Shown one piece after another: positions 8,706 through 46,107 of a stretch of DNA of 64,000 bases. The notes under the pieces were generated by a model. It saw only the letters and a program-made list of their open reading frames with translations. It had not been told where the DNA came from and did no database searches. How positions within the stretch are numbered: the stretch's first letter is position 1; each line of letters begins with the position of its first letter. Made by a program: the position numbers and the translations under genes. The stretch is from Mesorhizobium sp. SARCC-RB16n (lineage in GTDB: Bacteria; Pseudomonadota; Alphaproteobacteria; Rhizobiales; Rhizobiaceae): assembly GCF_008520305.1 (NCBI RefSeq), contig NZ_ML703269.1, positions 186,001-250,000 of the forward strand. The letters are read 5' to 3'.

Positions 8706-9767
8706 ATGGACCAGCGCGTAAAACCCGCTCCGCATGAAATCCGGCGGGCCCGGACGGAGAATCCGAAAACGCGCGAGCGTGACCTGGCCGCCCAGCTCGG
8801 CGTTTCGAAGGCCGAGCTGGTAGCCGCGCATTGCGGCGACGGCGTCATTCGCGTCGAGCCGCGCGTCAACGACCTTCTGACCGGTCTCGAGGCCGTTGGC
8901 GAGGTCATGGCGCTGACCCGCAACGAAAGCGCCGTGCACGAAAAGATCGGCGTGTACGACAAGGTCGTCACCGGCAATCACAATGCGATGGTGCTTGGCG
9001 AGAACATCGACCTGCGCATCTTCCCGAAAATCTGGGCGCATGGCTTCGCCGTGGAAAAGCGGGACGGCGACGACATCCGCCGCAGCCTACAGTTCTTCGA
9101 TGCGGCCGGCGAGGCGGTGCACAAGGTGCATCTGCGCCCGTCCTCCAGCCTCTACGGCTACCAGAAGCTGGTCGCCTCGCTGGGATCGTCGAACCAGGAG
9201 CCGATGGTCGACATTTCGGGATCCGTTCTCGACGAAGAAAGCGAGGCCGGGACATCGACGGCAAGCCTGGACGATCTGCGTGACCGCTGGGGCCGGCTGA
9301 CGGACGTGCACCAGTTCTTCGGCATGCTTAAGACGTTGAAGCTCAGCCGCCGCCAGGCGGTGCGCATGGTTGGCCAGGATTATGCCTGGCTGCTCGACAA
9401 TGACGCGGTGCGGGCCATGTTCCATCACGCCGTCGAAAGCGAGATGCCGATCATGTGCTTCGTGGGCAACCGCGGCTGCATCCAGATCCATTCCGGCCCG
9501 ATCAAGTCGATCAAGCCAATGGGACCATGGATCAACGTGCTGGACGAGACCTTTCATCTACATCTGCGAACCGACCACATCCATGAGGTCTGGGCGGTGC
9601 GCAAGCCAACCAAGGACGGCCATGTCACCTCGCTCGAGGTCTATGCCGCCAATGGCGACATGATCATCCAGTTCTTCGGCAAGCGCCATGAAGGCGAGGG
9701 CGAACGCGACGACTGGCGGTTCCTGGCCGAGCAGCTGCCGCGCATCCCAAACCCGACGGCAGCCTGA
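8706..9767 (+). CDS. hmuS: Cytoplasmic hemin-degrading/heme-transfer factor HmuS
   Basis: A 353-residue HemS/ChuS-family protein with the two tandem repeats typical of the family (about residues 30-170 and 200-345; repeats carry LGENIDLRIFPKIWAHGF and LDETFHLHLRTDHIHEVW). It has no signal peptide, so it acts in the cytoplasm, accepting heme from the HmuTUV importer for storage or breakdown. It follows hmuP by 24 bp and precedes hmuT by 10 bp, so it belongs to the same operon. Whether it degrades heme here or only carries it is open, since HmuQ is also present. Confidence 0.93.
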   Translation: MDQRVKPAPHEIRRARTENPKTRERDLAAQLGVSKAELVAAHCGDGVIRVEPRVNDLLTGLEAVGEVMALTRNESAVHEKIGVYDKVVTGNHNAMVLGENIDLRIFPKIWAHGFAVEKRDGDDIRRSLQFFDAAGEAVHKVHLRPSSSLYGYQKLVASLGSSNQEPMVDISGSVLDEESEAGTSTASLDDLRDRWGRLTDVHQFFGMLKTLKLSRRQAVRMVGQDYAWLLDNDAVRAMFHHAVESEMPIMCFVGNRGCIQIHSGPIKSIKPMGPWINVLDETFHLHLRTDHIHEVWAVRKPTKDGHVTSLEVYAANGDMIIQFFGKRHEGEGERDDWRFLAEQLPRIPNPTAA

Positions 9768-9777
9768 GGAAAGTGTA

Positions 9778-10686
9778 ATGCGGTTTGTGTCGAGACCGTC
9801 CGCCCTGCGCGGATCGATGATCGGTTCCGCGATCGGCTTTTCCCTGGCTTTCGCCGCGATGCAACCAGCCGGCGCCGCCGAAGGCGTTTCGGTTTTCGCC
9901 GATCCTTCGAAGATCGCCGCCATCGGCGGGTCCATCACCGAAATCGTCTATGCGCTTGGCGAGGAAAAACATCTGGTAGCGCGAGATTCCAGCAGCCTCT
10001 ATCCGAAAGCAGTACGTGAGTTGCCCGATGTCGGTTACATGCGCCAGCTGTCGCCGGAAGGTGTCTTGTCGGTCAATCCGACAGGCATACTGGCATTGCA
10101 CGGCAGCGGCCCCAAGGAAACCGTCGACGTGCTGAAGAAGACGAGCGTCCAGTTTATCGAGGTGCCCGATCGGTACGATCATGAAGGCATCCTCGACAAG
10201 ATTCGCATCGTCGGCAAGGCGCTTGGCGCCGATGCAAAGGCCGAAGCCTTGGCCAAGCAGGTCGACGCCAGGCTGAAGGCGGCCGAGAAGCAGACGGCCT
10301 CGATCAAGGAGCGCAAACGTGTCTTGTTCGTGCTTTCGATGCAGGGCGGCAAGATCATGGCGGCCGGCAGCGACACCGCGGCCAACGGCATTGTCGAGCT
10401 AGCCGGCGGCGCCAACGCCATCGAGGGCTTTTCCGGCTACAAGCAACTGTCCGACGAAGCGATCATCACCGCCAGGCCGGACGTGATCCTGATGATGAGC
10501 AACGCCGGGCCGCCGGTCTCGGACGACGAAGTGTTCGGCAATCCATCCATTGCTTCGACGCCGGCCGGTACCGCGCGCAAGCTGATCCGCATCGATGGCG
10601 CCTATCTGCTCGGCTTTGGGCCACGAACGGCCGACGCCATCCACGACCTCGCCGTGTCGCTTTATGGCGCACAGGTCACGGACTGA
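9778..10686 (+). CDS. hmuT: Heme ABC transporter periplasmic binding protein HmuT
   Basis: A 302-residue periplasmic binding protein of the FepB/BtuF class. The signal peptide ends near QPAGAAE. The first lobe begins with the family signature KIAAIGGSITEIVYALGEE, and the second lobe carries PDVILMMSNAGPP. The ATG at 9778 follows GAGGAAAG just after the hmuS stop; the longer open frame overlaps hmuS and is not used. It delivers heme to HmuU/HmuV. Confidence 0.93.
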   Translation: MRFVSRPSALRGSMIGSAIGFSLAFAAMQPAGAAEGVSVFADPSKIAAIGGSITEIVYALGEEKHLVARDSSSLYPKAVRELPDVGYMRQLSPEGVLSVNPTGILALHGSGPKETVDVLKKTSVQFIEVPDRYDHEGILDKIRIVGKALGADAKAEALAKQVDARLKAAEKQTASIKERKRVLFVLSMQGGKIMAAGSDTAANGIVELAGGANAIEGFSGYKQLSDEAIITARPDVILMMSNAGPPVSDDEVFGNPSIASTPAGTARKLIRIDGAYLLGFGPRTADAIHDLAVSLYGAQVTD

Positions 10687-10691
10687 GCATC

Positions 10692-11789
10692 ATGGTCGAT
10701 CAATCGATCGCCGGCCCGGTGAAGGCGAATGCATCCGAAGGCGATCGTTCCGGTCGCGCCCGCCTCGTCATCCTCTTGCTGTGCCTGTGCCTGGCGATCG
10801 CCGTCTTGCTTTCGCTCACATTCGGGGCGTCGGACGCATCCGCCGTGACCGTCATCGGGGATTGGCTCTTTGGCATCGTTCCCGGCGATGCGGCGCTCAA
10901 CGCGCGAGACAGCCTGATCGTCTACGATATCCGGCTGCCGCGCGTCATTCTCGGCGTGCTGGTCGGCGCGGCGCTGGCAGTATCCGGCGCGGTCATGCAA
11001 GGGCTGTTCCGCAATCCGCTCGCCGATCCCGGCCTGATCGGGGTTTCAGCCGGCTCCAGCCTTGGCGCTGTGGCCGTCGTCGTACTTGGCGGGACCATGC
11101 TGGCACCGTTGGCCGCCTTGCTCGGCACGCTTGCGCTGCCGCTTGCGGCGTTCTTCGGCGGCCTCGCCACCACATTGGTGCTTTATCAGATCGCGACGCG
11201 ACGCGGGCAAACCTCGGTCGCCACCATGCTGCTCGCGGGCATCGCGCTGACGGCACTTGCCATGGCGATGACCGGAATCCTCATTTTCATGGCCGACGAT
11301 CGCCAGTTGCGCGACCTGACGTTCTGGCAGTTGGGATCGCTCGGTGGTGCGACGTGGCCTAAGATCAGCTCCGTCGGACCGATCATCGTTCTGGCACTTG
11401 CGGCGATGCCGTTCCTGGCCCGCAGCCTCAACGCGCTGGCGCTCGGCGAGGCGACAGCCGGCCATCTCGGCATTCCAGTGCAACGGCTGAAATACACGGC
11501 GATCGTCGGTGTCTCGGCGGCTGTGGGCGCGTCGGTCGCCGTCAGCGGCGGTATAGGCTTTGTCGGTATCGTCGTACCGCATCTGCTGCGCCTTCTGATC
11601 GGTCCCGACAACCGCTATCTGCTGCCGGCCTCGGCGCTGCTCGGCGCTTCGCTGCTGCTTCTGGCCGATGCGGTCGCCCGCACCATCGTGGTGCCGGCCG
11701 AGTTGCCGATCGGCATCGTCACCGCCGTCGCTGGCGCGCCGTTCTTCCTGTGGATCCTGCTGCGCAAGCGTGGCGTGATTGATTTGTGA
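10692..11789 (+). CDS. hmuU: Heme ABC transporter permease HmuU
   Basis: A 365-residue FecCD-family inner-membrane permease with about ten hydrophobic segments. The conserved stretch AVSGAVMQGLFRNPLADPGL (about residues 96-115) and the C-terminal GGIGFVGIVVPHLLRLLIGP block are typical of heme, siderophore and B12 importers. It starts 5 bp after hmuT and is followed 26 bp later by hmuV. Confidence 0.95.
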   Translation: MVDQSIAGPVKANASEGDRSGRARLVILLLCLCLAIAVLLSLTFGASDASAVTVIGDWLFGIVPGDAALNARDSLIVYDIRLPRVILGVLVGAALAVSGAVMQGLFRNPLADPGLIGVSAGSSLGAVAVVVLGGTMLAPLAALLGTLALPLAAFFGGLATTLVLYQIATRRGQTSVATMLLAGIALTALAMAMTGILIFMADDRQLRDLTFWQLGSLGGATWPKISSVGPIIVLALAAMPFLARSLNALALGEATAGHLGIPVQRLKYTAIVGVSAAVGASVAVSGGIGFVGIVVPHLLRLLIGPDNRYLLPASALLGASLLLLADAVARTIVVPAELPIGIVTAVAGAPFFLWILLRKRGVIDL

Positions 11790-11815
11790 GATTTGAGACC
11801 CTGGAGGAGTGCTTC

Positions 11816-12608
11816 ATGATCGAAGCGCGCGATGTTTCTGTGGCGATCGGCAAGAAGCGCATTGTCGCCAACGTCGATTTCGAAGTCAGGCCGGGTGAAA
11901 TCTCGGCCATCGTCGGCCCCAACGGATCGGGCAAGACAACTTTTCTCAAGGCGATGTCGGGGGATCTCGCCCATACCGGGCGGATCGTCATCAACGGTCG
12001 CGAGCTGTCGACGATGAAGCCGGTCGAGGCCGCGACCGTGCGAGCGGTGCTGCCTCAGGCAACGACCTTGTCCTTTCCTTTCACCGTGCGCGAGATCGTC
12101 AGGCTTGGCCTTGTCAGTAGCCGCTCCGGCGTGCTGCCCGGCGAGGACGAACGCCTGCCGGAGCGGGCGCTGGCTCGCGTCGATCTCGACGGTTTTGCCG
12201 GCCGTTTCTACCAGGAGCTTTCCGGTGGCGAGCAGCAGCGCGTCCAGCTTGCGCGCGTGCTGTGCCAGGTATGGGCGCCGGTGCTCGACGGCAGGCCGCG
12301 CTATCTTTTTGCTCGACGAACCGGTTTCCAGCCTCGACATCAAGCATCAGCTGATCATCATGAACATCGCCCGCGACTTCGCCAGAAGAGGCGGCGGCGT
12401 GGTCGCGATCCTGCACGACCTCAACCTGACGGCGATGTTTGCCGACCGCATCTTCGTGATGCATCGCGGCCGGTTGGCGGCGACCGGCTCGCCGTGGGAC
12501 GTGCTGAGTGACGATCTGATCGAGAAAGTGTTCGACTGCCGGCTCAAGGTCGGGGTGCTGCCGGCCGCCAACATGCCGTTCGTGCTCCCGCAATCGTCGG
12601 TCAGCTGA
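11816..12608 (+). pseudogene. hmuV: Heme ABC transporter ATPase HmuV, interrupted by a one-base frameshift
   Basis: The first frame, from the ATG at 11816 after GGAGGAG, has Walker A GPNGSGKTT and the signature LSGGEQQRVQLARVL. Just before Walker B it leaves frame. The remainder (FLLDEPVSSLDIKHQLIIMN, then ILHDLNLTAMFADRI) continues in the next frame to 12608. The shift lies at CTATCTTTTTGCTCG: a run of five T at 12306-12310, where four T would restore YLLLDEP. All domains are otherwise intact, so this is either a recent mutation or a sequence error. Without HmuV the importer should not work unless another ATPase substitutes. Confidence 0.85.
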
Positions 12609-12621
12609 TATTCAGCCGACC
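12599..12621. terminator. Hairpin between convergent hmuV and rirA
   Basis: GGTC-A-GCTGA-TAT-TCAGC-C-GACC forms a nine-pair stem with one mismatch, overlapping the hmuV stop. It sits exactly between two convergent genes. It lacks a T run on either side, so any terminator role is tentative. Confidence 0.4.
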
Positions 12622-12640
12622 TCGCACGACGCGACAGGGA

Positions 12641-13102
12641 TCAAGCTGCCGGCGCGCGGCGTTCCAGCAGGTCGATGCCGAGCAGGTTGCGCACATTCGG
12701 CCGCGCCGCCACCAGATCGGCGATCGTGTAGCGGGCAAGCACGGCGAAGAAGGCGTTGAGCGCTTCGCGCAGGGCCGAGTTCAATGCGCAGCTGTCGACC
12801 AGCGGGCATTCGGCCGCGTCGTTCTCGAAGCACTCCGCCATGGCAAAGCTTTCCTCGGTCACGCGCACCACGTCGAACAGGCTTATCGATTCGGCGGCAC
12901 GGCCGAGCCGTACCCCTCCGTTCCGGCCGCGGACAGTTTCTACCAGGCCGTTCTCGACCAAGGGCTGCAGGATTTTGAACAGGAAAAGTTCCGACACCGA
13001 ATAGGCGGCCGCGATCTCCGGGATGCGGCTCAACCGTTCATTGTTGGCGGCACAATACATCAGGATGCGCATGGCATAGTTGGTTTGGCGCGTAAGCCGC
13101 AT
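12641..13102 (-). CDS. rirA: Iron-responsive Rrf2-family repressor RirA
   Basis: A 153-residue Rrf2 regulator with an N-terminal winged helix (MRLTRQTNYAMRILMYCA, then a recognition helix near SVSELFLFKILQPL). It has cysteines at positions 91, 99 and 105, exactly the spacing used by RirA to hold its iron-sulfur cluster. RirA represses iron-uptake genes when iron is sufficient. The start at 13102 follows GAGGATGAG and gives the canonical N-terminus; an ATG at 13126 is also in frame. It is convergent with the hmu operon, which it probably controls. Confidence 0.95.
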   Translation of the reverse strand: MRLTRQTNYAMRILMYCAANNERLSRIPEIAAAYSVSELFLFKILQPLVENGLVETVRGRNGGVRLGRAAESISLFDVVRVTEESFAMAECFENDAAECPLVDSCALNSALREALNAFFAVLARYTIADLVAARPNVRNLLGIDLLERRAPAA

Positions 13103-13223
13103 CTCATCCTCACAAAGCGCTGGCACGCTGCAACCATGCCAGAGTCTAGAACTTTGCCGGCGCGCGGCTTCATCCGAATTTTCGGGTTCACCACACTGGC
13201 CTCGACCGAATATGGCCTATACC

Positions 13224-35986: not shown

Positions 35987-36133
35987 CCGCGACAACGGCA
36001 GCGGCGCTGCCCAGAGTGTCGCTGCCGCGGCTCCGTCACGGCGCTGCTTCTCCCGCGCGGGGTGAAGCTTGTCGTGTCCGCCACGCCGCCAAGTGGAAAG
36101 CGGCGATGCGCGGCCGACAAACAGACACGAACT

Positions 36134-37045
36134 TCACAATGAGTTGCCCTGCAATGTCGTTTCCTGATCGACCAAGGAATTGACCACAAGCCTTCCGATC
36201 TTGCTATCCAGAAAGTCCTGCCTTGCGACCAAGAAATAGCTTCGCTCGGAGGAGATCGGCTCTGGATCCATTGCAATCAGAAGCCCATTCTCGATCAACT
36301 GGTCGATCACGCCGCTCCAGCCCAGCCCAATTCCATACCCCATCAAGGTCTGATGAATGGCAATGCCATGGTTGGTCACCGTGATGCCGGCATTGATATT
36401 CTGACTGTCCGGCGACCTTAGGTCTCGCCAGTCCGACCAGGTGAACCAGCGCTGTTCTCGATCTTCAAGGTGGATCAAAGGGCCCTGAGCGAGCATTTCG
36501 GCGCGGGAAACGCCGGCAAGGCGCGAAGCGAGAGCGGGCGCTGCCACCGGAACCACAATTTCCTGCATCAGCAAGCGGCTTTCGTACCCTGACCAATCGC
36601 CGCTGCCAAAAAGAATAGCGCAGTCCACCTCCTCCAACGGGATGTCTTGGTCGCGTTCCGCCGTCGTTACCCTGACAACCAGATCGGGATAGAGGCGCCT
36701 GACTCTCTCCAGACGCGCCATAAGCCAAAACATGGCAATGCCCGGATAGGTCGCGAGGGTCAGGGCATCCTGTCGATTGTTCCTTCGGAGCTTGGCGCTC
36801 GCCCTGGCGATGTCCGAGAGGCCGTTCGCTATCGTCTGGTAGTACGACAGCGCCTCGGCAGTTGGCACCGTGAGCGAGCCCTTCCTTTCGAACAGCTGGA
36901 CGTTGAGGTCTGTTTCCAGAGCATGAATCTGGTGACTGATGGCGGGTTGGCCGACATTCAGTTCTCTCGCCGCCCGGGTAAAGTTTCCGAGCCGGATACA
37001 GGCCTCGAAAACACGCAACGATTTCAAAGGCGGTAAATCATGCAT
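36134..37045 (-). CDS. LysR family regulator (GcvA-like), candidate regulator of the dmd cluster
   Basis: A 303-residue LysR protein with a GcvA-like N-terminus (PPLKSLRVFEACIRLGNFTR, then helix LNVGQPAISHQIHALE). It is divergent from the betaine-type transporter and dmd-like genes, the normal position for their activator or repressor. The start at 37045 gives the standard length; the ATG at 37084 is upstream with no better site. The inducer is inferred to be the transported onium compound or a pathway product. Confidence 0.9.
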   Translation of the reverse strand: MHDLPPLKSLRVFEACIRLGNFTRAARELNVGQPAISHQIHALETDLNVQLFERKGSLTVPTAEALSYYQTIANGLSDIARASAKLRRNNRQDALTLATYPGIAMFWLMARLERVRRLYPDLVVRVTTAERDQDIPLEEVDCAILFGSGDWSGYESRLLMQEIVVPVAAPALASRLAGVSRAEMLAQGPLIHLEDREQRWFTWSDWRDLRSPDSQNINAGITVTNHGIAIHQTLMGYGIGLGWSGVIDQLIENGLLIAMDPEPISSERSYFLVARQDFLDSKIGRLVVNSLVDQETTLQGNSL

Positions 37046-37228
37046 TCTGGAGCAGCCACGTTGCCTATCGATGCCGAACGGCAACGTGAAGAATAGCAGT
37101 CATCATCAAAAAAAGTAATGCACCGATGAATCTTATCTGCCTGTCCAGGTCTCAAGCCGGGTGAGAAAAACAATCTGGGAGAACGGGAACGGGAGTAGGC
37201 CCGGGCCTCGGCCATCGCCGGCTTGGAG

Positions 37229-37251
37229 GAAAGCTTTCATAGACGAAAGCT
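37229..37251. promoter_or_regulatory. Palindrome upstream of the betaine transporter operon
   Basis: GAAAGCTTTC is a perfect 10-bp palindrome, followed after six bases by a second GAAAGC; equally, AGCTTTC-N6-GAAAGCT pairs. It lies 80-100 bp before the transporter start and between the LysR gene and its likely target, so it is a candidate operator. Confidence 0.4.
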
Positions 37252-37330
37252 GGCGCTGTTCCCGATAGCTGTTTGAGGAGGCGGTGGTCGTCAAACAGCG
37301 AAGTCTGCATCAACCGCTTGGGAGGAAGAA

Positions 37331-38341
37331 ATGAAATACAGACACATTGTTGCATGTCTCGCCGGGACAACCCTCGGCCTTCTGTCGATGGCATCGGCAT
37401 CGTTTGCGGCCGGATGCGGCGAAGTGACAATCGCCACGATGAACTGGCAATCCGCTGACGTGGCGGCCAGTCTCGACAAATTCATCTTGGAGAAGGGCTA
37501 CGGCTGTTCCGCTGAAGTCGTTTCCGGCGACACTGTACCAACCCTGACCTCGCTCGCCGGCAAGGGACAACCGGATATCGTTCCCGAGGCCTGGGTCAGC
37601 CTGCAGCCGGAACTGGTCAAAAGCGCTCTGGACGGAGGCAAGGCGATAGCCGCATCGAAAATCCTTTCCGACGGAGCGATCCAAGGTTGGTGGATTCCGC
37701 AATATGTCGCCGAGGCACATCCTGACATCAAGACGATCCCCGACCTTTTCAAGCATCCCGAACTCTTTCCCGCTCCGGAGGACAAGAGCAAGGGTGCCGT
37801 CTACAATGGTCCGCAAGGCTGGGGCGGTACGGTCGTAACCACGCAGCTCTTCAAGGCGTTCGGGGGAGAGAAAGCCGGTTTCACGCTGATCGACACCGGG
37901 TCCGCGGCCGGGCTCGATGGCTCGATTGCGAAAGCCTACGAGGCCAAGCAGCCCTGGGTCGGCTACTATTGGGCTCCGACCTCGCTCCTCGGCAAGTACC
38001 CGATGGTCAAGCTCGGGTATGGAGTTGACTATGATGCAGCTGAATGGAAGCGCTGCACATCGATCGGCGACTGCCCCGACCCAAAGCCGAATGCATGGCC
38101 TGCAGACGACGTGCAAACGCTTGTCAGCAAGACTTTCGCCGATCGCGCCGGTCCGGCAATCATGGACTATTTGAACAAGCGCGCATGGTCGAACGATACC
38201 GTCAACAAGCTGATCGCCTGGATGACGGATAATCAGGCGACTGGCGAGGACGGCGCCAAGCATTTCCTCAAAAACAATGAGGACATCTGGAAAACCTGGG
38301 TTTCTCCCGAGGTGGCCGAAAAGATCAAGGCCTCCCTCTAA
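37331..38341 (+). CDS. Betaine/DMSP-type ABC transporter substrate-binding protein (OpuAC/ProX family)
   Basis: A 336-residue periplasmic binding protein. The signal peptide ends near SASFAAG, followed by the OpuAC domain (VTIATMNWQSADVAASLDKF). Several aromatic residues suit a cation-pi cage for quaternary ammonium or sulfonium groups (AIQGWWIPQY, QPWVGYYWAP). Related proteins bind glycine betaine, proline betaine or DMSP. The gene opens the operon with a GGGAGGAAG ribosome site. Its neighbours make DMSP a good candidate ligand, but that is inferred. Confidence 0.9.
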   Translation: MKYRHIVACLAGTTLGLLSMASASFAAGCGEVTIATMNWQSADVAASLDKFILEKGYGCSAEVVSGDTVPTLTSLAGKGQPDIVPEAWVSLQPELVKSALDGGKAIAASKILSDGAIQGWWIPQYVAEAHPDIKTIPDLFKHPELFPAPEDKSKGAVYNGPQGWGGTVVTTQLFKAFGGEKAGFTLIDTGSAAGLDGSIAKAYEAKQPWVGYYWAPTSLLGKYPMVKLGYGVDYDAAEWKRCTSIGDCPDPKPNAWPADDVQTLVSKTFADRAGPAIMDYLNKRAWSNDTVNKLIAWMTDNQATGEDGAKHFLKNNEDIWKTWVSPEVAEKIKASL

Positions 38342-38414
38342 CTGCCCGCGCAAGCGGTTGCGGGCGGCATCGCCGAGCTGGTGCCGTCCCGCCTTTTCCA
38401 CGGGGAAACTGGGA

Positions 38415-39302
38415 ATGGATTCGTTCTGGAAATTTCCGACGATGGACGCAGATACGCTCCGTCTGTTGAAAAAGAATATCGATGAAGGCTTCCGTGCATT
38501 CACACGCGCCTACGGCGACAGCATAGAGAGCCTTTTCAACCCGCTTCAGAGCTTCCTCATCTGGGCTGAGCGCCTGCTCCTCGCAACCCCTTGGCCGGTG
38601 GTGATTGCGGCGGTCGCGGTCATTGCCTGGATCGCAAGTCGCAGCCTGAAGATTGTCGCAGGCTGTGTCGTGACGCTTCTGGTCATCGGCTGGTTCGATA
38701 TGTGGGACGACACGATGAAGACGGTGTCGATGATCTTCGTCTGCACCGTGCTTGCAATCGTGATCGGAATACCGATCGGGATCGGAATGGCCCGTTCGAA
38801 CCGGTTGCAGCGCATCGTCAATCCGGTACTCGACGTCATGCAGACAATGCCCAGTTTCGTTTATCTGATCCCCGTCGTCATGTTGCTGGGGATCGGCCGC
38901 GTGCCCGGCGTCATTGCGGTCGTTATCTACGCTGTTCCGCCGATGATACGTCTTACCAATCTCGGAATCCGTATGGTCGACAGGGATGTGCTGGAGGCGG
39001 CGGATGCGTTCGGCTCATCGAGCTGGCAGAAGCTGCGCAATGTCCAACTCCCGCTTGCGCTGCCCACGATCATGGCAGGCGTCAACCAAACGATCATGAT
39101 GGCGCTTTCCATGGTGGTGATCGCTTCGATGATCGGCGTGCAGGGGCTCGGCCAACCGGTGCTCAAGGCAATCGCCAACCAATATTTCACTTTGGGCGTC
39201 TTCAACGGCCTCGCCATTGTCGGTATCGCCATCATCTTCGACCGCATCAGCCAGGCATACGGCAGCCGCCTGCAAAAGCACCGAGAGATCGTCCATGGCT
39301 GA
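38415..39302 (+). CDS. Betaine/DMSP-type ABC transporter permease (OpuAB/ProW family)
   Basis: A 295-residue permease with about six to seven helices. It has the permease signature block VLEAADAFGSSSWQKLRNVQ (EAA loop) and the ProW-like stretch MQTMPSFVYLIPVVMLLGIG. The ATG at 38415 was chosen; upstream frame is read-through of the binding-protein gene. It overlaps the ATPase gene start by 8 bp. Confidence 0.92.
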   Translation: MDSFWKFPTMDADTLRLLKKNIDEGFRAFTRAYGDSIESLFNPLQSFLIWAERLLLATPWPVVIAAVAVIAWIASRSLKIVAGCVVTLLVIGWFDMWDDTMKTVSMIFVCTVLAIVIGIPIGIGMARSNRLQRIVNPVLDVMQTMPSFVYLIPVVMLLGIGRVPGVIAVVIYAVPPMIRLTNLGIRMVDRDVLEAADAFGSSSWQKLRNVQLPLALPTIMAGVNQTIMMALSMVVIASMIGVQGLGQPVLKAIANQYFTLGVFNGLAIVGIAIIFDRISQAYGSRLQKHREIVHG

Positions 39303-40341
39303 AGCGAACCAGCCCGGGATCGACATCAGGAACCTCTGGAAGGTTTTCGGACCGAATGCCAAAGCCATGGTTCCCTTGCTGGAGCAGGGGACTTCCAAAG
39401 CCGAACTGAACGGGCGCCACGGCCACGTCCTGGGTCTCAAGAACGTCAACATCACCATGCCGGCCGGAGCGATACAGGTCATCATGGGCCTTTCCGGCTC
39501 CGGCAAATCGACGTTGATCCGCCACATCAACAGACTGGTCGATCCGACGGCGGGCGAGATCCTGGTTGGCGACGAAGACGTCGTGAAAATGGGGGCTCAT
39601 GAGCTGCGCGAGTTCAGGCGGCATAAGACGGCGATGGTGTTTCAGAAGTTTGCGCTGCTACCGCACCGCAACGTGCTGGAAAACGTTGTCTACGGCCTGC
39701 AGATACAAGGTGTGCCGCGACGCCGGCAAGTCGAGGCGGCCACCCGCTGGGTCGACCGTGTGGGTCTTGCCGGCTTCGAAAAGCACTATCCCAACCAATT
39801 GTCCGGGGGCATGCAGCAACGTCTTGGGCTTGCTCGGGCGCTCGCAAACGATGCTCCGATCCTGCTGATGGACGAGGCGTTTTCGGCGCTCGATCCCCTC
39901 ATTCGCACGGACATGCAGACGGTGCTGCTCGATATCCAGAAGGAAATCAGGAAAACCATCGTCTTCATCACCCACGATCTCGACGAGGCCCTTCGGCTAG
40001 GCGACCGAATCGCCATCCTGCGCGACGGGGAAGTGGTGCAACAGGGCACCAGCCAAGACATCGTCCTGCGACCCGCGGACGATTACGTCAAGGCTTTCGT
40101 CAAGGAGGTCAGCCGGGGCCGCGTCGTCCATGTCGAGGCAGTCATGGCGCCGTTCAATCCGGAGGATCGGTCATTGGCTACCGTGCCAAGGCAAACGACG
40201 CTCGATGCCGCCGCGAATGTGCTGATGCAGCATGACTGTGAGCATCTCACCGTGATGGACGAAGCCGGAACGCCGGTCGGCCAGATCAGCCTGCGACTGC
40301 TTTTGCGCGCGATCGTGACTCCGGCTGATGACATCGGTTGA
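39295..40341 (+). CDS. Betaine/DMSP-type ABC transporter ATPase (OpuAA/ProV family)
   Basis: A 348-residue ATPase. Walker A is GLSGSGKST, the signature is LSGGMQQRLGLARAL and Walker B is ILLMDEAFSALDPL. Like ProV it has an extra C-terminal CBS-like region (LDAAANVLMQHDCEHLTVMD), which may sense ionic strength. It is 121 bp before the dmdA-like gene, probably in the same transcription unit. Confidence 0.93.
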   Translation: MAEANQPGIDIRNLWKVFGPNAKAMVPLLEQGTSKAELNGRHGHVLGLKNVNITMPAGAIQVIMGLSGSGKSTLIRHINRLVDPTAGEILVGDEDVVKMGAHELREFRRHKTAMVFQKFALLPHRNVLENVVYGLQIQGVPRRRQVEAATRWVDRVGLAGFEKHYPNQLSGGMQQRLGLARALANDAPILLMDEAFSALDPLIRTDMQTVLLDIQKEIRKTIVFITHDLDEALRLGDRIAILRDGEVVQQGTSQDIVLRPADDYVKAFVKEVSRGRVVHVEAVMAPFNPEDRSLATVPRQTTLDAAANVLMQHDCEHLTVMDEAGTPVGQISLRLLLRAIVTPADDIG

Positions 40342-40462
40342 ACTGACGGCCGTTCTTTGGGCGGCACATTTCTATCAAGATATCGCGGCCGCGAGGGCAG
40401 CGTAACCGCAAGAACCGGCAATCGGAATTCCCGTGCCCGTCGGGACGCAACAGGAGACCTCG

Positions 40463-41566
40463 ATGTTTTCATTTTCACCGACGGCACGTGTTCGACCGTC
40501 CCCCTTTTTCGAGGCGGCGGTGGCGGAGGGCATGGTGGCCGCGAACGTCTACAACCGCATGATCATGCCGACGTCCTACGGCGATCCGGAAGGCGAATAC
40601 TGGCGGCTCATCAACGGGGTTTCACAATGGGATGTTGGCGTGGAACGCCAAGTGCAGCTCAAGGGACACGACGCCGGCCGGCTTGCGCAGATCCTGTCGC
40701 CGCGCGATCTCTCCACGTGCAAGGTCGGCCAGGGCAAATATGTGCCGCTTTGTAATCATCGCGGCACGATCATCAATGACCCTATCCTGTTAAAGCACGC
40801 CGACGATCTCTTCTGGTTTTCAATCGCGGACTGCGACATGTGGCTGTGGGCAAGCGCCATCGCGGCGGAGCGTGGTCTAAAGGTCGACATCAGCGAACCC
40901 GACGTCTCGCCGATGGCTCTTCAGGGACCCAAGGCCGAAGACGTGGTGGCCCACGTTGTCGGCGATTGGGTACGCACGCTCAAGTACTTCTGGTTCAAGG
41001 AAACCGAGATTGAAGGCATTCCCGTCGCAGTGCAGCGGTCGGGGTGGTCCAAGCAGGGCGGGTTTGAGATCTACCTGAAGGATGGCACCAAGGGCACGAA
41101 GCTCTGGAACATCTTCAAGGAGGCAGGCAAACCCTGGGGGATCGGACCGGGAGCGCCCGCGACGGCCGAGCGCACGGAGAGCGGGCTGGTTTCCGTCGGC
41201 GGTGACACCGACGAGGACACCAATCCCTTCGAAGTGCGGCTGGGCAAATATGTGGACCTCGATGTTCCGGACGATGTCGTCGGCATTGAGGCACTACGCA
41301 GGATCAAGGCCGAGGGGCCGAAGCGGCACCAACTGGGTCTCGTGCTCGACGGCGCAACGCCTGCGCCGCTCGGCACGAAACGCGAGGATATCACGCACGC
41401 CGGCACCATGGTCGGCGTGATGACCAATTGCACATGGTCCCCTCGCATGAAGGCGAACATCGGATACGCCCTTATCTCCGTCGGCATGAAGGCGGGCGAG
41501 ACTGTCGTCGTTCACCGCGCCGGCGGTCCGATCGCTGCGCGGCTTGTGGAACTCCCATTCCTATGA
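40463..41566 (+). CDS. dmdA: DmdA-like THF-dependent demethylase (GcvT family)
   Basis: A 367-residue GcvT-fold protein matching the length and motif pattern of DMSP demethylase DmdA: YNRMIMPTSYG, WDVGVERQVQLKG, LSPRDLSTC, DISEPDVSPMALQGP and RSGWSKQGGFEIYLKDG. DmdA transfers a methyl group from DMSP to tetrahydrofolate, giving methylmercaptopropionate. The next three genes match DmdB, DmdD and DmdC, which strongly supports this reading. Related GcvT proteins use other methyl donors such as betaines, so the substrate remains inferred. The ATG at 40463 follows CAGGAGA. Confidence 0.8.
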   Translation: MFSFSPTARVRPSPFFEAAVAEGMVAANVYNRMIMPTSYGDPEGEYWRLINGVSQWDVGVERQVQLKGHDAGRLAQILSPRDLSTCKVGQGKYVPLCNHRGTIINDPILLKHADDLFWFSIADCDMWLWASAIAAERGLKVDISEPDVSPMALQGPKAEDVVAHVVGDWVRTLKYFWFKETEIEGIPVAVQRSGWSKQGGFEIYLKDGTKGTKLWNIFKEAGKPWGIGPGAPATAERTESGLVSVGGDTDEDTNPFEVRLGKYVDLDVPDDVVGIEALRRIKAEGPKRHQLGLVLDGATPAPLGTKREDITHAGTMVGVMTNCTWSPRMKANIGYALISVGMKAGETVVVHRAGGPIAARLVELPFL

Positions 41567-43179
41567 ACACCGAAGCACCCTATCTACGACCGAGGCCCGC
41601 AAACTATGTCCCGCTGACGCCCCTATCATTTCTGGGGCGAACGGCCGAACTCTATCCAGACCGATTGGCGCTTATCGACGAGGATCGACGCTTCACCTGG
41701 CAGGAGGTGCGCCAACGCTGCGAAGCTCTGGCCGCCGCCCTCATGGATATCGGTGTCAAACCGGGTGACGTGGTTTCCGTGCTTGCTCCGAATACGGCGG
41801 AGATGTTCGAGGCGCAGTTTGCTGTCGCAATGGCCGGCGCCGTTCTTAACACCATCAACATCCGCCTTGATGCCGAGACGGTGGCCTATATCCTGGACCA
41901 TGCGGAAACCCGGGTCCTGATGCTGGACAGGCAGTTCGCATCGATGGCTGAGGAGGCGTTGCAGCGCACCAAGTGCGGCCGACCCGTCATCATCGATCTC
42001 GGCGGGCCAGGGGATGCCCTGCCAGGCAGCCAGCGCCATTCGGATCTGGTTCGATCAGCGCCCGCCGACTTCCACCCGGTGTTCCCGACCGACGAGTGGC
42101 AAACCCTGTGCCTCAACTATACGTCCGGTACCAGTGGCAGGCCGAAGGGGGTGCTCTACCATCACCGTGGCGCCTACCTGATGGCGCTCGGTACCATCGC
42201 CGGCTGGGGTCTGTCGGGTCATCCGACCTATCTCTACACAGTGCCCATGTTCCACTGCAATGGCTGGGGCCATGCGTGGACCATGACCGCGCTCGCTGCG
42301 ACAATCGTCTGCTGCCGGCAGATATCGGCCAAGGCCGTTTATGATGCCATCGGCTCATTCGGCGTCACGCATTTCGGCGGTGCGCCGATCGTGCTGGGCA
42401 TGCTGGTCGAGGCCGCGGAAGCAGAACGGCCCGTGCTTCCTCACAAGGTGCGCGTGATGACGGCGGGGGCGCCTCCGCCGGCGACGATCCTCGAGAAAGT
42501 CGAGGCATTGGGCTTCGACGTCATGCAGGTTTACGGCCTCACGGAAACCTACGGCCACGTCGTTCAGTCCATTTGGGAGGAAGAGTGGAACGAAATGGAT
42601 GTCGCGCTGCGCGCGACGATCAAGGCACGCCAGGGCGTTCGTTTCCCGATGATGGAGACTGTCGAGATCCGGGATGTCGCATCGGGAAAACGTCTGCCGA
42701 AGGACGGGACCGCGATGGGTGAGATCATGTTGCGCGGCAACACGGTCATGAAAGGCTATCACAAGGATGAAGCCGCTACGGAAGCCGCCTTTGCCGGCGG
42801 CGCGTTTCATAGCGGCGACGTCGCCGTGCAACATCCCGACGGATTCCTCGAAATACGCGATCGCTACAAGGACATCATTATCTCCGGCGGGGAGAACATT
42901 TCCTCGATCGAAGTGGAATCCGCCTTGTATCGCCACCCCGCCGTCAGCGCCGCCGCTGTCGTGGCCAAGCCGGATGCCAAGTGGGGCGAAACGCCCTGTG
43001 CCTTCGTGGAATTGAAGCCGGGGGCGAGCGTCACTGCTGACGAGTTGAACCAATTTTGCCGCCAGCATCTTTCCGGCTTCAAGGTTCCCAAGAGCTACGT
43101 CTTCGGGAGCTTGCCCAAGACCTCAACGGGAAAGATCGAAAAATACAAACTGCGTGAAAAAGTGAAGACAACACCATGA
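41563..43179 (+). CDS. dmdB: DmdB-like acyl-CoA synthetase (methylmercaptopropionate-CoA ligase)
   Basis: A 538-residue AMP-forming ligase. ATP motif YTSGTSGRPKGVLYHHRG, then VPMFHCNGWGHAW, YGLTETYGHV and the adenylate/hinge block DRYKDIIISGGENISSIEVE with catalytic Lys in PKTSTGKIEKYKL. It is the usual size of DmdB-type enzymes, which activate methylmercaptopropionate. Alone it would be called a medium-chain acyl-CoA synthetase; the neighbours narrow it. Start overlaps dmdA stop by 4 bp. Confidence 0.8.
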   Translation: MNTEAPYLRPRPANYVPLTPLSFLGRTAELYPDRLALIDEDRRFTWQEVRQRCEALAAALMDIGVKPGDVVSVLAPNTAEMFEAQFAVAMAGAVLNTINIRLDAETVAYILDHAETRVLMLDRQFASMAEEALQRTKCGRPVIIDLGGPGDALPGSQRHSDLVRSAPADFHPVFPTDEWQTLCLNYTSGTSGRPKGVLYHHRGAYLMALGTIAGWGLSGHPTYLYTVPMFHCNGWGHAWTMTALAATIVCCRQISAKAVYDAIGSFGVTHFGGAPIVLGMLVEAAEAERPVLPHKVRVMTAGAPPPATILEKVEALGFDVMQVYGLTETYGHVVQSIWEEEWNEMDVALRATIKARQGVRFPMMETVEIRDVASGKRLPKDGTAMGEIMLRGNTVMKGYHKDEAATEAAFAGGAFHSGDVAVQHPDGFLEIRDRYKDIIISGGENISSIEVESALYRHPAVSAAAVVAKPDAKWGETPCAFVELKPGASVTADELNQFCRQHLSGFKVPKSYVFGSLPKTSTGKIEKYKLREKVKTTP

Positions 43180-43964
43180 CGAAACCGAACTACATCACCA
43201 TCGAGACGGACGGCCCGGTAACGATCGTAACGCTGGTGCGCGAGGACCGGCGCAACGCAATCAGCGAAGATATGCTGCTGGAAATCGAAAACGTGTTTCG
43301 CGCGCCGCCGGAGGGCACGCGATCCTTCGTGCTTGCGGCAAAGGGCGACCACTTCTGCGCTGGGCTGGATCTTCGCGAGCACTATGACAAGGACCGGTCT
43401 CCAATCGAGTTCATGACCATGTGCCAGAAATGGCACCGTGCTTTCGATATCATTCAGTTCAGCGGAATCCCGGTGATTGCCGCCCTGAAGGGAGCGGTCG
43501 TCGGCGGAGGGCTTGAGCTGGCAGCGGCCGCCCATGTACGCATCGCCGAAGAAGGAACCTTCTTTGCCCTTCCGGAAGGCCAGCGCGGCATTTTCACGGG
43601 CGGCGGGGCGACCGTGCGCGTTGCCCGGATCGTTACCCCGGCGCGCATGGTCGATATGATGCTGTCGGCCCGCACCTACGATGCGCGACGTGGCCTGGAC
43701 CTTGGCCTGTGCCATGAGGTGGTGGGGGCCGGTCAAGCATTGTTACGTGCCAGAGAATTGGCCGCACAGGTCGCACGTAATCCGCCGACCACCAATTTCG
43801 CCATCGTCACCGGCATATCCCGCATCAACGACATGTCCACCACGGACGGCCTGTTTGCGGAGGGCCTGCTCGCAATGGCGGTTCAGACCAATCCGGAGAT
43901 CAGGGATCGGCTGGAGGCGTTCTTTTCCAAGAAGACCAAGCGCCTCGAACCCGGCACGAGTTGA
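43176..43964 (+). CDS. dmdD: DmdD-like crotonase (methylthioacryloyl-CoA hydratase)
   Basis: A 262-residue crotonase. Oxyanion-hole segments are AAKGDHFCAGLDL and GAVVGGGLEL. The two acidic catalytic residues are Glu114 and Glu134 (LPEGQRGIF), 20 residues apart as in DmdD (Glu121 and Glu141). DmdD hydrates methylthioacryloyl-CoA and releases methanethiol, acetaldehyde, CO2 and CoA. Other enoyl-CoA hydratases share these features, so the substrate is inferred from the operon. Start overlaps the ligase stop by 4 bp. Confidence 0.78.
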   Translation: MTKPNYITIETDGPVTIVTLVREDRRNAISEDMLLEIENVFRAPPEGTRSFVLAAKGDHFCAGLDLREHYDKDRSPIEFMTMCQKWHRAFDIIQFSGIPVIAALKGAVVGGGLELAAAAHVRIAEEGTFFALPEGQRGIFTGGGATVRVARIVTPARMVDMMLSARTYDARRGLDLGLCHEVVGAGQALLRARELAAQVARNPPTTNFAIVTGISRINDMSTTDGLFAEGLLAMAVQTNPEIRDRLEAFFSKKTKRLEPGTS

Positions 43965-43972
43965 CGTTCACG

Positions 43973-45679
43973 ATGACCTATAATCCGCCCATCTCCCAAA
44001 TCCTTCTGGCGATGCAGATCGCCGATCGGTTTGCCACGACGCAGCAGAGCGGGGACCTTTCCCCCGAAGACGTCCGGGCCATCCTATCCGAAGCAGGGCG
44101 TTTTGCGACCGAGCGCATCGCCCCCTTGAATCCGGTTGGCGACCGAACCCCCTCGACCCTCGACGAAGGCGGAAAGGTGACCACGCCGCCAGGCTGGCGC
44201 GAAACCTACCAGGCCTGGTGCGAGGCGGGCTGGAACAGCCTTACAGGACCAACCGAATATGGCGGCCAGGGGCTTCCGATCTCGCTGGCCGTGGCCTGCA
44301 CCGAGTTCTGGAATTCGTCCTCCATGGCTTTCGCCCTTTGCCCGCTTTTGACTGCTGGCGCCATCGAAGCCATCTCCGAACACGCCTCTCAGGAGCTCAA
44401 GGACCGCTACCTGCCCAAGCTTGTGTCCGGTGAATGGACCGGGACCATGAACCTGACGGAGCCACAGGCCGGTTCCGATCTTTCAAATCTTCGTTGCAAA
44501 GCCAAACGGACGGGCGACGGCAGCTACCGTATTACCGGCAACAAGATATTCATCACCTATGGCGAGCATGATTGCTCGCCGAATATCGTACATCTGGTTC
44601 TTGCACGGCTGGAAGACGCGCCCGCGGGCACGCGCGGTATTTCCCTGTTCCTGGTTCCGAAGATTCTTCCTGACGGCTCGCACAACGATCTGCGGTGTCT
44701 TTCGCTTGAGCACAAACTCGGCATTCACGGCTCGCCCACCTGCGCCATGGCTTATGGCGACAACGGAGGCGCAAAAGGCTGGCTCATCGGCGAGGAGAAC
44801 CGTGGTCTCAATTGCATGTTCACGATGATGAACAATGCGCGGCTCCTGGTCGGGACACAGGGTGTCGCGCTCGCGGAGCGGGCGACGCAGGCGGCCTTCG
44901 CCTATGCAAGGGAACGTGTCCAGGGCAGCGCCCCGGGCAGAGATGGAAATACAAGCCCCATCATCCACCATCCCGATGTCAGGCGAATGCTGCTCGAGAT
45001 GCGAACCAGGACCGCAGCGGCGCGCATGCTGTGCATGGCGACGGCTTCCGCGCTCGATTCGAGCGTGAACGCGCAGACAGAAAAAGAAAGGCACCGCGCC
45101 TATGCGCGAGCTTCATTGCTGACGCCCTTGGCCAAGGCGTACTCGACGGATATCGCGGTGGAAGTGACCTCGACCGCGATCCAGGTTCATGGCGGCATGG
45201 GCTACGTCGAGGAGACCGGCGTCGCGCAATACTACCGCGATGCGCGGATTCTTCCGATCTACGAAGGCACGAATGGCATCCAGGCTATCGACCTCGTCAC
45301 GCGAAAATTGTTCGTTGGGGGCGGAGAGACGTTGTCTCAGATTTTGGAATCTTGTCGCAGGACATTGTCTGCCTTCGAAAGCTGTTTACCGGCCGTTCAA
45401 GCTGTGGCTGACACGGTGGATTTGGCGAAAATGCTCTGCGATGCGCCCGGCGGTTCATTGTCACTCGCGGTTGCCGTGCCATTCCAGCGTGCCTTGGCCA
45501 ACGTTGTCGCCGGTGCTCATCTGGCTGAAGCCGCGGCGCTTGCACGAGGCGGCGCGCTTGAGACAGAAGCTGCAATCAACGCAAGGTTTTTCATCGCCGT
45601 TGAATTGGTATCGGCGGTTGCCGCGGCGAAGGCGTCATTATCCGGCGCCGATGCGACAGGTTCGGATGGCCTTGAATAA
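43973..45679 (+). CDS. dmdC: DmdC-like acyl-CoA dehydrogenase (methylmercaptopropionyl-CoA dehydrogenase)
   Basis: A 568-residue flavoprotein, long like DmdC and unlike the ~380-residue short-chain dehydrogenases. FAD/substrate motifs are MNLTEPQAGSDLSNL and FITYGEHD. The catalytic Glu is in LPIYEGTNGIQAIDLVTRK, and QVHGGMGYVEETG is conserved. It would oxidise methylmercaptopropionyl-CoA before the DmdD step. A TTG at 43961 is an alternative start; the ATG at 43973 was chosen, 8 bp after the crotonase stop. It is the last gene of the unit. Confidence 0.8.
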   Translation: MTYNPPISQILLAMQIADRFATTQQSGDLSPEDVRAILSEAGRFATERIAPLNPVGDRTPSTLDEGGKVTTPPGWRETYQAWCEAGWNSLTGPTEYGGQGLPISLAVACTEFWNSSSMAFALCPLLTAGAIEAISEHASQELKDRYLPKLVSGEWTGTMNLTEPQAGSDLSNLRCKAKRTGDGSYRITGNKIFITYGEHDCSPNIVHLVLARLEDAPAGTRGISLFLVPKILPDGSHNDLRCLSLEHKLGIHGSPTCAMAYGDNGGAKGWLIGEENRGLNCMFTMMNNARLLVGTQGVALAERATQAAFAYARERVQGSAPGRDGNTSPIIHHPDVRRMLLEMRTRTAAARMLCMATASALDSSVNAQTEKERHRAYARASLLTPLAKAYSTDIAVEVTSTAIQVHGGMGYVEETGVAQYYRDARILPIYEGTNGIQAIDLVTRKLFVGGGETLSQILESCRRTLSAFESCLPAVQAVADTVDLAKMLCDAPGGSLSLAVAVPFQRALANVVAGAHLAEAAALARGGALETEAAINARFFIAVELVSAVAAAKASLSGADATGSDGLE

Positions 45680-45748
45680 TCGGTATACCTGAGCCGCGCG
45701 ACTGGCATTATGGCCAGCGACGGATGAAAGCGCTCCTAGCGCGGATAC

Positions 45749-45942
45749 ATGCGCCACGGGGCCATTTCCCGGTTCCAAGTGCGCGTCGCGACTGGCGATG
45801 GGCTGGCGATGGTCGACGGCCCGGACCTTTCGGCGGCGGACTTCGACCGTCTGACCAGGCGGTTTGCCTCCACCAAAAGCGCGAGGGCAGAGCGGGAGTT
45901 GGCTTCGCCATTGCTTCCGAGGTCGCGATCGTTGTCGGCTGA
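45749..45942 (+). pseudogene. Frameshifted remnant of a sensor histidine kinase C-terminus
   Basis: One frame reads VDGPDLSAADFDRLTRRFAS, and the next frame continues AGVGFAIASEVAIVVG before a stop at 45942. Together these match the end of a HATPase domain (DGPG...F.RF...G.GLAI). A one-base shift separates them near 45885, and no N-terminal kinase sequence is present. The 353-bp gap between dmdC and tRNA-Asn holds nothing else recognisable. Confidence 0.45.
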
Positions 45943-46032
45943 GCGCGTCGCCGACCGCTTGAAGCTGCCGGCGCGAATTATATCGCAAAATCAATGTGCA
46001 GAAGGTAGGTGATGCGTTTTGAGCGCAGAAAT

Positions 46033-46107
46033 TGGCTCCCCGGGCCGGATTCGAACCAGCGACCAACCGGTTAACAGCCGGTTGCTCTACCACTGAGCTA
46101 CCGGGGA
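46033..46107 (-). tRNA. tRNA-Asn (anticodon GTT)
   Basis: The reverse strand folds into a complete cloverleaf. The acceptor arm TCCCCGG pairs with CCGGGGA, the D arm contains GCTC-AGTGGTA-GAGC, the anticodon stem ACCGG/CCGGT holds GTT (46073-46075), and the T arm is GCTGG-TTCGAAT-CCGGC. CCA is encoded at the 3' end. Confidence 0.97.

Follow-up and report, generated by a model that had tools for sequence, protein, structure and literature searches.

The window, as the whole 64,000-nucleotide stretch analysed here is termed, belongs to contig NZ_ML703269.1 of Mesorhizobium sp. SARCC-RB16n and harbours an eight-gene block that probably serves the uptake and demethylation of dimethylsulfoniopropionate (DMSP), or of a very close dimethylsulfonio-carboxylate, with a DmdA from a separate lineage. 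A LysR-type regulator gene (36134..37084, minus strand), an open reading frame whose product contains the Pfam domains HTH_1 and LysR_substrate, lies divergent to the plus-strand genes of an ATP-binding cassette (ABC) importer. These encode a DmpX-like substrate-binding protein (SBP) of the OpuAC type (37331..38341; 207 bits to OpuAC and, by phmmer, 247 bits to 7yle), a permease of the ChoW/ProW/DmpW type according to NCBIfam and Pfam (38415..39302) and a ProV/DmpV-type ATPase with a CBS domain (39295..40341; 339 bits to proV TIGR01186, cut-off 326.6). The enzymes follow on the same strand: a DmdA-like tetrahydrofolate (THF) methyltransferase, placed by model score and trees in a sister clade of canonical DmdA and with its ligand-site residues kept (40463..41566); a DmdB-like acyl-coenzyme A (CoA) ligase of the PRK08162 family (41563..43179; 775 bits, cut-off 677, and 243 bits to 6ihk); a DmdD-like crotonase of the PRK08150 family (43176..43964; 339 bits, cut-off 232); and a long, DmdC-like acyl-CoA dehydrogenase with a TTG start (43961..45679).

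From the dmdA-like to the dmdC-like gene (40463-45679) every joint is a 4-base overlap, and 121 bp lie between the ATPase gene and the dmdA-like gene. Family assignments of the cluster proteins are concordant across Pfam, NCBIfam and PDB sequence matches, which confirms the sequence-only reading, a model's earlier note on this DNA, in its description of four coupled genes in the order A-B-D-C beside a betaine-type (OpuA) importer and a divergent LysR gene. The LysR gene has start candidates at TTG 37084 or ATG about 37045, and the best NCBIfam model for its product, chol_sulf_TF, gives 240.9 bits, under the cut-off of 324.8. A scan for promoters and terminators remained below chance level (6 terminator-like hairpins in the region, the ATPase-dmdA gap included, against 9.6 expected by chance), and for that reason transcription units are not inferred from it. 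All eight frames are open and conserved in three genomes (the window, G122 and G124), and the ratio of nonsynonymous to synonymous substitution rates (dN/dS) of the window against the other two is 0.01-0.21 in seven of the eight genes, dmdC having been excluded owing to a gap. As G122 and G124 carry the block intact and its genes show these ratios, purifying selection rather than chance accounts for it; the gene block is real, mobile and under selection.

The DmdA-like protein consists of GCV_T and GCV_T_C domains, and its best solved match is the DmdA of Pelagibacter ubique (PDB 3tfh). Canonical DmdA proteins from Phaeobacter inhibens and Marinovum score 594 and 639 bits against the curated DmdA model NF009133, and in the genus of Ruegeria faecimaris the best matches reach 569-700 bits, above the cut-off of 410 in 41/41 genomes; the window protein scores 348 bits. 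In a tree of 48 sequences the window clade (support 99/94) and the canonical side (98/95) are sisters inside a clade supported at 100/99. The window clade is also separate in a tree of 108 sequences, for which sequences more than 80% identical were collapsed (205 to 108) and tblastn matches under about 320 query residues or with a stop were dropped. Forcing the window protein together with four canonical sequences cost 224 log units (approximately unbiased test, p 1.3e-44). Identity as canonical DmdA is excluded by the model score and the trees, and the earlier label of DmdA fails as worded because the protein falls under the curated threshold. Members of the sister clade come from records titled Rhizobiaceae, Rhodobacteraceae, Comamonadaceae and SAR116. 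On plasmids of Antarctobacter and Marinovum, canonical dmdA is followed by a gene of the medium-chain dehydrogenase/reductase (MDR)/alcohol-dehydrogenase type, presumably like the dmdA-acuI arrangement of Ruegeria pomeroyi. Putative non-DmdA relatives close to DmdA are mentioned in the available part of an earlier study (PMC7487153).

The ligand site of the window protein retains Y30, N31, Y93, S120, W195, E202 and Y204, and five of these (Y93, S120, W195, E202 and Y204) align with reported THF/DMSP-site positions when the alignment numbering of PMC7487153 is carried over to the window protein, a mapping that is itself inferred. W195 is found as in P. ubique DmdA, aligned with the reported DMSP-site tryptophan. 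The same position holds Tyr in 23/23 canonical roseobacter sequences (L172-L191, L085, L086, L236), and W195 was accordingly dropped as a criterion for DmdA. Such residues suggest that the sister-clade DmdA may be a DMSP:THF methyltransferase. The sequence-only reading had named a demethylase outside the DmdA clade with a different pocket as evidence against itself; the trees do place the protein outside that clade, while the pocket, as far as the listed residues indicate, appears kept.

The company kept by the gene in other genomes provides the weightier argument for DMSP demethylation. Homologues of the GcvT-like protein (E <= 1e-60) occur in 11/146 genomes of the genus, ten at 84-97% identity (that of G038 split over two frames) and one at 37%, and in 43/394 genomes of the family; these counts may be low, as only the best few candidates per genome were scored (up to 13 in the genus, 5 in the family and 6 in the DmdD search). 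Among the best 80 of 584 related loci, 11 (L003, L005, L006, L008, L012, L013, L016, L018, L020, L053, L064) carry an R. pomeroyi-type DmdD, 59-82% identical to 4izb, at most 6 kb from window-clade dmdA, and the two genes also adjoin on a Marivivens plasmid (L081; plasmid matches are the best 40 of 352 records). A window-type DmdD (47-50% to 4izb) lies near dmdA in three more loci (L001, L002, L004). Window-clade DmdA in the loci paired with DmdD is 66-85% identical to that of the window; in L006, L144, L145 and L081 the figures are 84-85% for DmdA and 81-82% for the paired DmdD relative to R. pomeroyi DmdD. A gene similar to B, C or D (at least 38% identity) is present within 7 kb of dmdA in 23 of the best 80 loci. 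Across the 394 family genomes, 16 have a DmdD at least 69% identical to the L144 protein (one partial, with a further fragment in G465 left out), and a DmdA homologue occurs in 12/16 of these versus 31/378 of the genomes without it (Fisher p 8e-10). This DmdD lies within 2 kb of over-cut-off DmdA in six genomes (G175, G184, G343, G368, G398, G524) and within 2 kb of window-clade DmdA in five (G009, G012, G014, G246, G533), G533 having canonical DmdA elsewhere in the genome. The NF009133 cut-off was passed in 3 of 27 genomes checked for canonical DmdA, and no canonical DmdA was found in 10 checked Mesorhizobium-genus genomes with window-clade dmdA. Because the sister DmdA pairs with the same DmdD that also adjoins canonical DmdA, the balance tips slightly towards a second lineage of true DMSP demethylases, one that the curated model does not detect and that shares about 35-41% identity with the known lineage. 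It would extend the methanethiol route to rhizobia and, going by record titles, to bacteria of lakes, and in Mesorhizobium it would travel on a mobile island at tRNA-Asn that has a DMSP importer of its own.

Several relatives of the gene are of separate interest. G016, the genome of L060, titled Rhizobiaceae group, has three DmdA homologues, of which one exceeds the canonical cut-off and two fall short of it. The dmdA homologues at L146 9257-10442 and L064 10001-11100 are spread over two frames, owing to a frameshift that is either genuine or an assembly error. A reduced cluster is present at L141 10637-11635 (G110), where a dmdA 87% identical to that of the window precedes a frame matching the first 109 dmdB residues only and neither dmdD nor dmdC is matched in the available stretch. 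On a conjugative plasmid of Lichenihabitans (L083 8603-13170) a DmdA-like gene (41% identical) stands with genes for methylenetetrahydrofolate reductase (MTHFR), purU and folD, a gene set that suggests some other THF-dependent demethylation with one-carbon oxidation. On roseobacter plasmids (L087, L088), genes for an acyl-CoA synthetase and an enoyl-CoA hydratase, together with one of the OsmC family, accompany a more distant DmdA-like clade, which perhaps represents another sulfonium pathway; the order in L227 and L228 is similar but includes a gap without annotation.

Comparison of related Mesorhizobium loci resolves the cluster into modules. In L001, L142 and L143 the dmdABDC genes are 77-86% identical to the window in DNA, homology starting no more than a few bases from the start codon of dmdA, and upstream lies another divergent LysR gene (29-30% identical) with no importer. 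In L006, L144, L145 and L146, dmdA is 84-89% identical, the order is A-B-C-D and the B, C and D proteins are just 48-55% identical to those of the window; one DmdA type is thus combined with two downstream enzyme sets. No DmpX-like SBP gene was found in the available flanks of the 80 related loci. The importer and its LysR gene form, judged from these comparisons, a further module. The compact operon proposed by the sequence-only reading therefore stands for dmdABDC and not for the importer, given the 121-bp gap, the 80 loci lacking the SBP gene and the Mesorhizobium dmdABDC clusters with a different LysR gene and no importer.

The SBP has the DMSP-bound DmpX structure 7yle as its best solved match and aligns over nearly its full length to RnDmpX, the pocket of which, as given in the available part of the source, is formed by W35, T64, W84, E113, W152, A153, Y200 and W202 (PMC10030565). 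The window protein retains the four-Trp cage together with T64 and Y200, and differs by Glu113 to Gln and Ala153 to Gly, so that W-T-W-Q-W-G-Y-W stands against W-T-W-E-W-A-Y-W with 6/8 identical. Homologues of the SBP (E <= 1e-60) occur in 21/144 genomes of the genus. Nine other Mesorhizobium SBP paralogues (L158-L166), 53-57% identical, are without W84 and Y200, and likely bind a different ligand; they carry Thr, Ala or Val at the W84 position and Gln, Ser or Ala at that of Y200. DMSP import by the window importer is tentatively judged likely. The same pocket is found in transporters of Sinorhizobium sp. B11 and Rhizobium sp. WYJ-E13 (both 80% identical) and of Rhizobium etli CIAT 652 (68%), with no dmd genes seen near these Rhizobium and Sinorhizobium systems.

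The block was acquired horizontally, in this strain as an insertion at a tRNA-Asn gene (46033..46107, minus strand). The inserted DNA of about 10 kb (36027..46032), missing from collinear relatives, has a guanine plus cytosine content of 60.1% versus 62.7% in the remainder of the window; its left edge lies near 36027-36049 and its right edge is flush with the tRNA 3' end at 46033. Three relatives, L168, L169 and L171 (G024, G112, G126), lack the block and are collinear with the window to the left and right of it, the insertion point spanning about 0.1, 0.25 and 0.8 kb, respectively, versus 10 kb in the window; in L168 a DUF982 gene is followed after about 130 bp by tRNA-Asn. A fourth, L170, lacks the block and also the Hsp20-DUF982 stretch. 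The adjoining pcm-tolC stretch matches in 144/144 genomes of the genus of L002, Mesorhizobium (two weakly; best 93%, G122), which together with the homologue survey bears out the earlier view of a rhizobium-like genome. Within the insert, 36087..45708 is common to two other genomes of the genus (L139, L140), and whole-block identity is 97.0% in G122 and 96.1% in G124, with all eight genes and their order kept. Since G124 is just 78% identical to the window in the pcm-tolC core stretch, the block has moved between species. In G122, the closest relative, the block sits elsewhere on the same contig and the tRNA-Asn site holds about 4.3 kb of other DNA (L167 about 8893-13185), so that in Mesorhizobium this site may be a hot spot for insertions. 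A tRNA att duplication was rejected, as no direct repeat of at least 18 nt links the two edges, so that an integrase-type mechanism is not shown. NCBIfam and Pfam identified no integrase among the eight cluster genes, and Pfam found no transposase or integrase family in ten frames flanking the block in G122 and G124; one flanking frame in L140 carries DUF4158. Between dmdC and the tRNA-Asn gene lies an apparently decayed fragment (45750-45950), to which a portion of a two-component sensor kinase gene, intact in L139, is 81% identical at the DNA level.

In the proposed pathway, the DmpX-like SBP and its ABC partners would bring DMSP into the cell, where the sister-clade DmdA would transfer a methyl group from sulfur to THF, yielding methylmercaptopropionate and 5-methyl-THF. 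The ligase, a DmdB family member, would then form the CoA ester of methylmercaptopropionate, the dehydrogenase, by its DmdC-type family, would oxidise this to methylthioacryloyl-CoA, and the DmdD-like crotonase would hydrate the latter to release methanethiol, acetaldehyde, CO2 and CoA. Control of the divergent importer, and perhaps of the enzymes as well, presumably falls to the LysR regulator. The crotonase has R. pomeroyi DmdD 4izb as its best solved match; its E114 lines up with chain position 121 and its E134 with position 141, the latter of which we take to be a catalytic glutamate, and the glutamate pair pointed out by the sequence-only reading is kept as the catalytic pair. The role of DmdD Glu121 was addressed with an E121A mutant, according to the available part of the source, which also describes DmdD as an enzyme of limited distribution whose adaptation to DMSP is unique (PMC5395565).

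Several observations nevertheless speak against DMSP as the substrate. The DmdA-like protein lies under the curated score and, in both trees, outside the clade of P. ubique and roseobacter DmdA. The ligase scores 304 bits against NF005426 (DmdB), under a cut-off of 822, with PRK08162 preferred instead, and its matches to other solved enzymes equal or exceed that to solved DmdB. The dehydrogenase (421 bits to 8png, 407 to 6ijc) is as close to 8png and 8pns as to 6ijc, which we take to be DmdC, and the crotonase is just 49% identical to 4izb and falls in its own clade of eight sequences, with no resolution relative to the R. pomeroyi DmdD clade and the Rhodopseudomonas palustris crotonase 3hin; by these comparisons DmdB, DmdC and DmdD of the window diverge from DMSP-specific types. 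No B-, C- or D-like gene lies within 7 kb in 57 of the best 80 loci (in 20/57 the flank on one side is shorter than 4 kb), and window-clade DmdA alone (at least 59% identity) is linked more weakly to the R. pomeroyi-type DmdD (5/16 versus 22/378, p 0.003). Sister DmdA stands alongside canonical DmdA in G018, G015, G016 and G533, and an extra sub-threshold homologue is present in 4/41 genomes of the R. faecimaris genus; given this coexistence it may serve another purpose in those genomes. Neither G122 nor G124, which carry the same block, yielded a methanethiol oxidase; counts of 2/10 in dmdA-bearing versus 0/10 in other Mesorhizobium-genus genomes were too few, and the enzyme was dropped as a marker. 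The non-canonical clade, divergent downstream enzymes, partnerless loci, dual-DmdA genomes and missing oxidase leave room for a different onium acid, such as a propionate-chain plant betaine (beta-alanine betaine) or another sulfonium, which the DmdA-like enzyme would demethylate, B, C and D then processing the product acid, and the SBP pocket, being that of a transporter beside stachydrine genes, would suit it also. This alternative is considered unlikely, as the four-gene set is that of the DMSP route, tryptophan is kept where P. ubique has its reported DMSP-site tryptophan, and close relatives of this DmdA (L006, L144, L145, L081) pair with R. pomeroyi-type DmdD. The earlier claim of a DMSP demethylation-like function accordingly survives in part: the substrate would most likely be DMSP or a close sulfonium, but the first enzyme is not canonical DmdA.

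The importer raises a question of its own, since the R. etli transporter with the same pocket adjoins stcD, etfAB and a pyrroline-5-carboxylate reductase gene, neighbours that suggest stachydrine as its ligand. The importer was consequently dropped as proof of DMSP specificity, and the dedicated uptake proposed earlier stays unproven even with the DmpX aromatic cage kept. It is conceivable, though the less favoured view, that the importer is an independent betaine osmoprotectant system (stachydrine, glycine betaine) upstream of a DMSP pathway, a view compatible with DMSP demethylation by the enzymes; the gap before dmdA, the dmdABDC clusters beginning their homology at the dmdA start codon without importer or LysR, and the flanks of the best 80 loci without an SBP homologue agree with it, whereas the four DmpX tryptophans and Tyr200, lost in part from the paralogues L158-L166, and the joint travel of eight genes in three genomes speak for a role in the pathway. 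An ordinary aminomethyltransferase or dimethylglycine-type demethylase would share the Pfam domains of the GcvT-like protein, but is highly improbable: GcvT models give 103-151 bits (cut-offs 236-459) against 348 for the DmdA model, E61, Q63, S193, S196, K197, Q198 and G199, common to the canonical and sister clades, differ in Thermotoga maritima GcvT and in trimethylamine N-oxide (TMAO) demethylase, and ligase and crotonase partners would make no sense for glycine. That the cluster is a decaying passenger without function, to which its inserted nature and the apparently decayed kinase fragment at its right end might point, is scarcely credible in view of the open frames conserved in three genomes and their dN/dS values. 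DMSP uptake and demethylation thus remains the preferred reading of the block.

Set beside known systems, the window encodes the same four enzyme families as DmdA-DmdB-DmdC-DmdD of R. pomeroyi and P. inhibens. The plasmid cluster of P. inhibens DSM 17395 holds the genes together as C-D-B-A with an over-cut-off DmdA, whereas the window has A-B-D-C, a DmdA 38% identical and of the sister clade, and B, D and C proteins 54%, 51% and 44% identical. Closer counterparts in Mesorhizobium huakuii NBRC 15243 (L006) and on the plasmid of Marivivens sp. LCG002 (L081) resemble the window in a DmdA 84-85% identical, a divergent LysR gene and DmdB/C/D neighbours; they differ in DmdB/C/D proteins 48-55% identical, a DmdD 81-82% identical to that of R. 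pomeroyi and no adjoining DmpX-like importer. A precedent is offered by the SAR92 DmdA, which the available part of the source describes as 38-40% identical to R. pomeroyi DmdA, peripheral to and outside clades A-E, with genes for B, C and a crotonase in the same cluster, and nonetheless functional, having restored methanethiol production to a dmdA mutant (PMC10746254); it is likened here by description. Its identification by gene order was not conclusive, 38/390 genomes of the order of L080 matching.

No report of a dmd cluster in Mesorhizobium was found by title or abstract opening in the literature on dmdA or DMSP in rhizobia, soil and rhizosphere, subscription papers being mostly excluded, and no assay was found in the literature for the sister DmdA lineage. 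The available parts of two studies tie Mesorhizobium to dddP and ddhA in sediments (PMC7039863) and describe DMSP in Spartina and Carex rhizospheres (PMC11306096). The homologue in M. huakuii NBRC 15243 makes the proposed function testable in a named strain. Should some other onium acid prove to be the substrate, this clade would represent a known scaffold with a new demethylase specificity. If DMSP is the substrate, dmdA surveys by the curated model or marine clades would overlook a lineage that is widespread, and the flux from DMSP to methanethiol would need to be taken into account for fresh water as well as for soils and rhizospheres.

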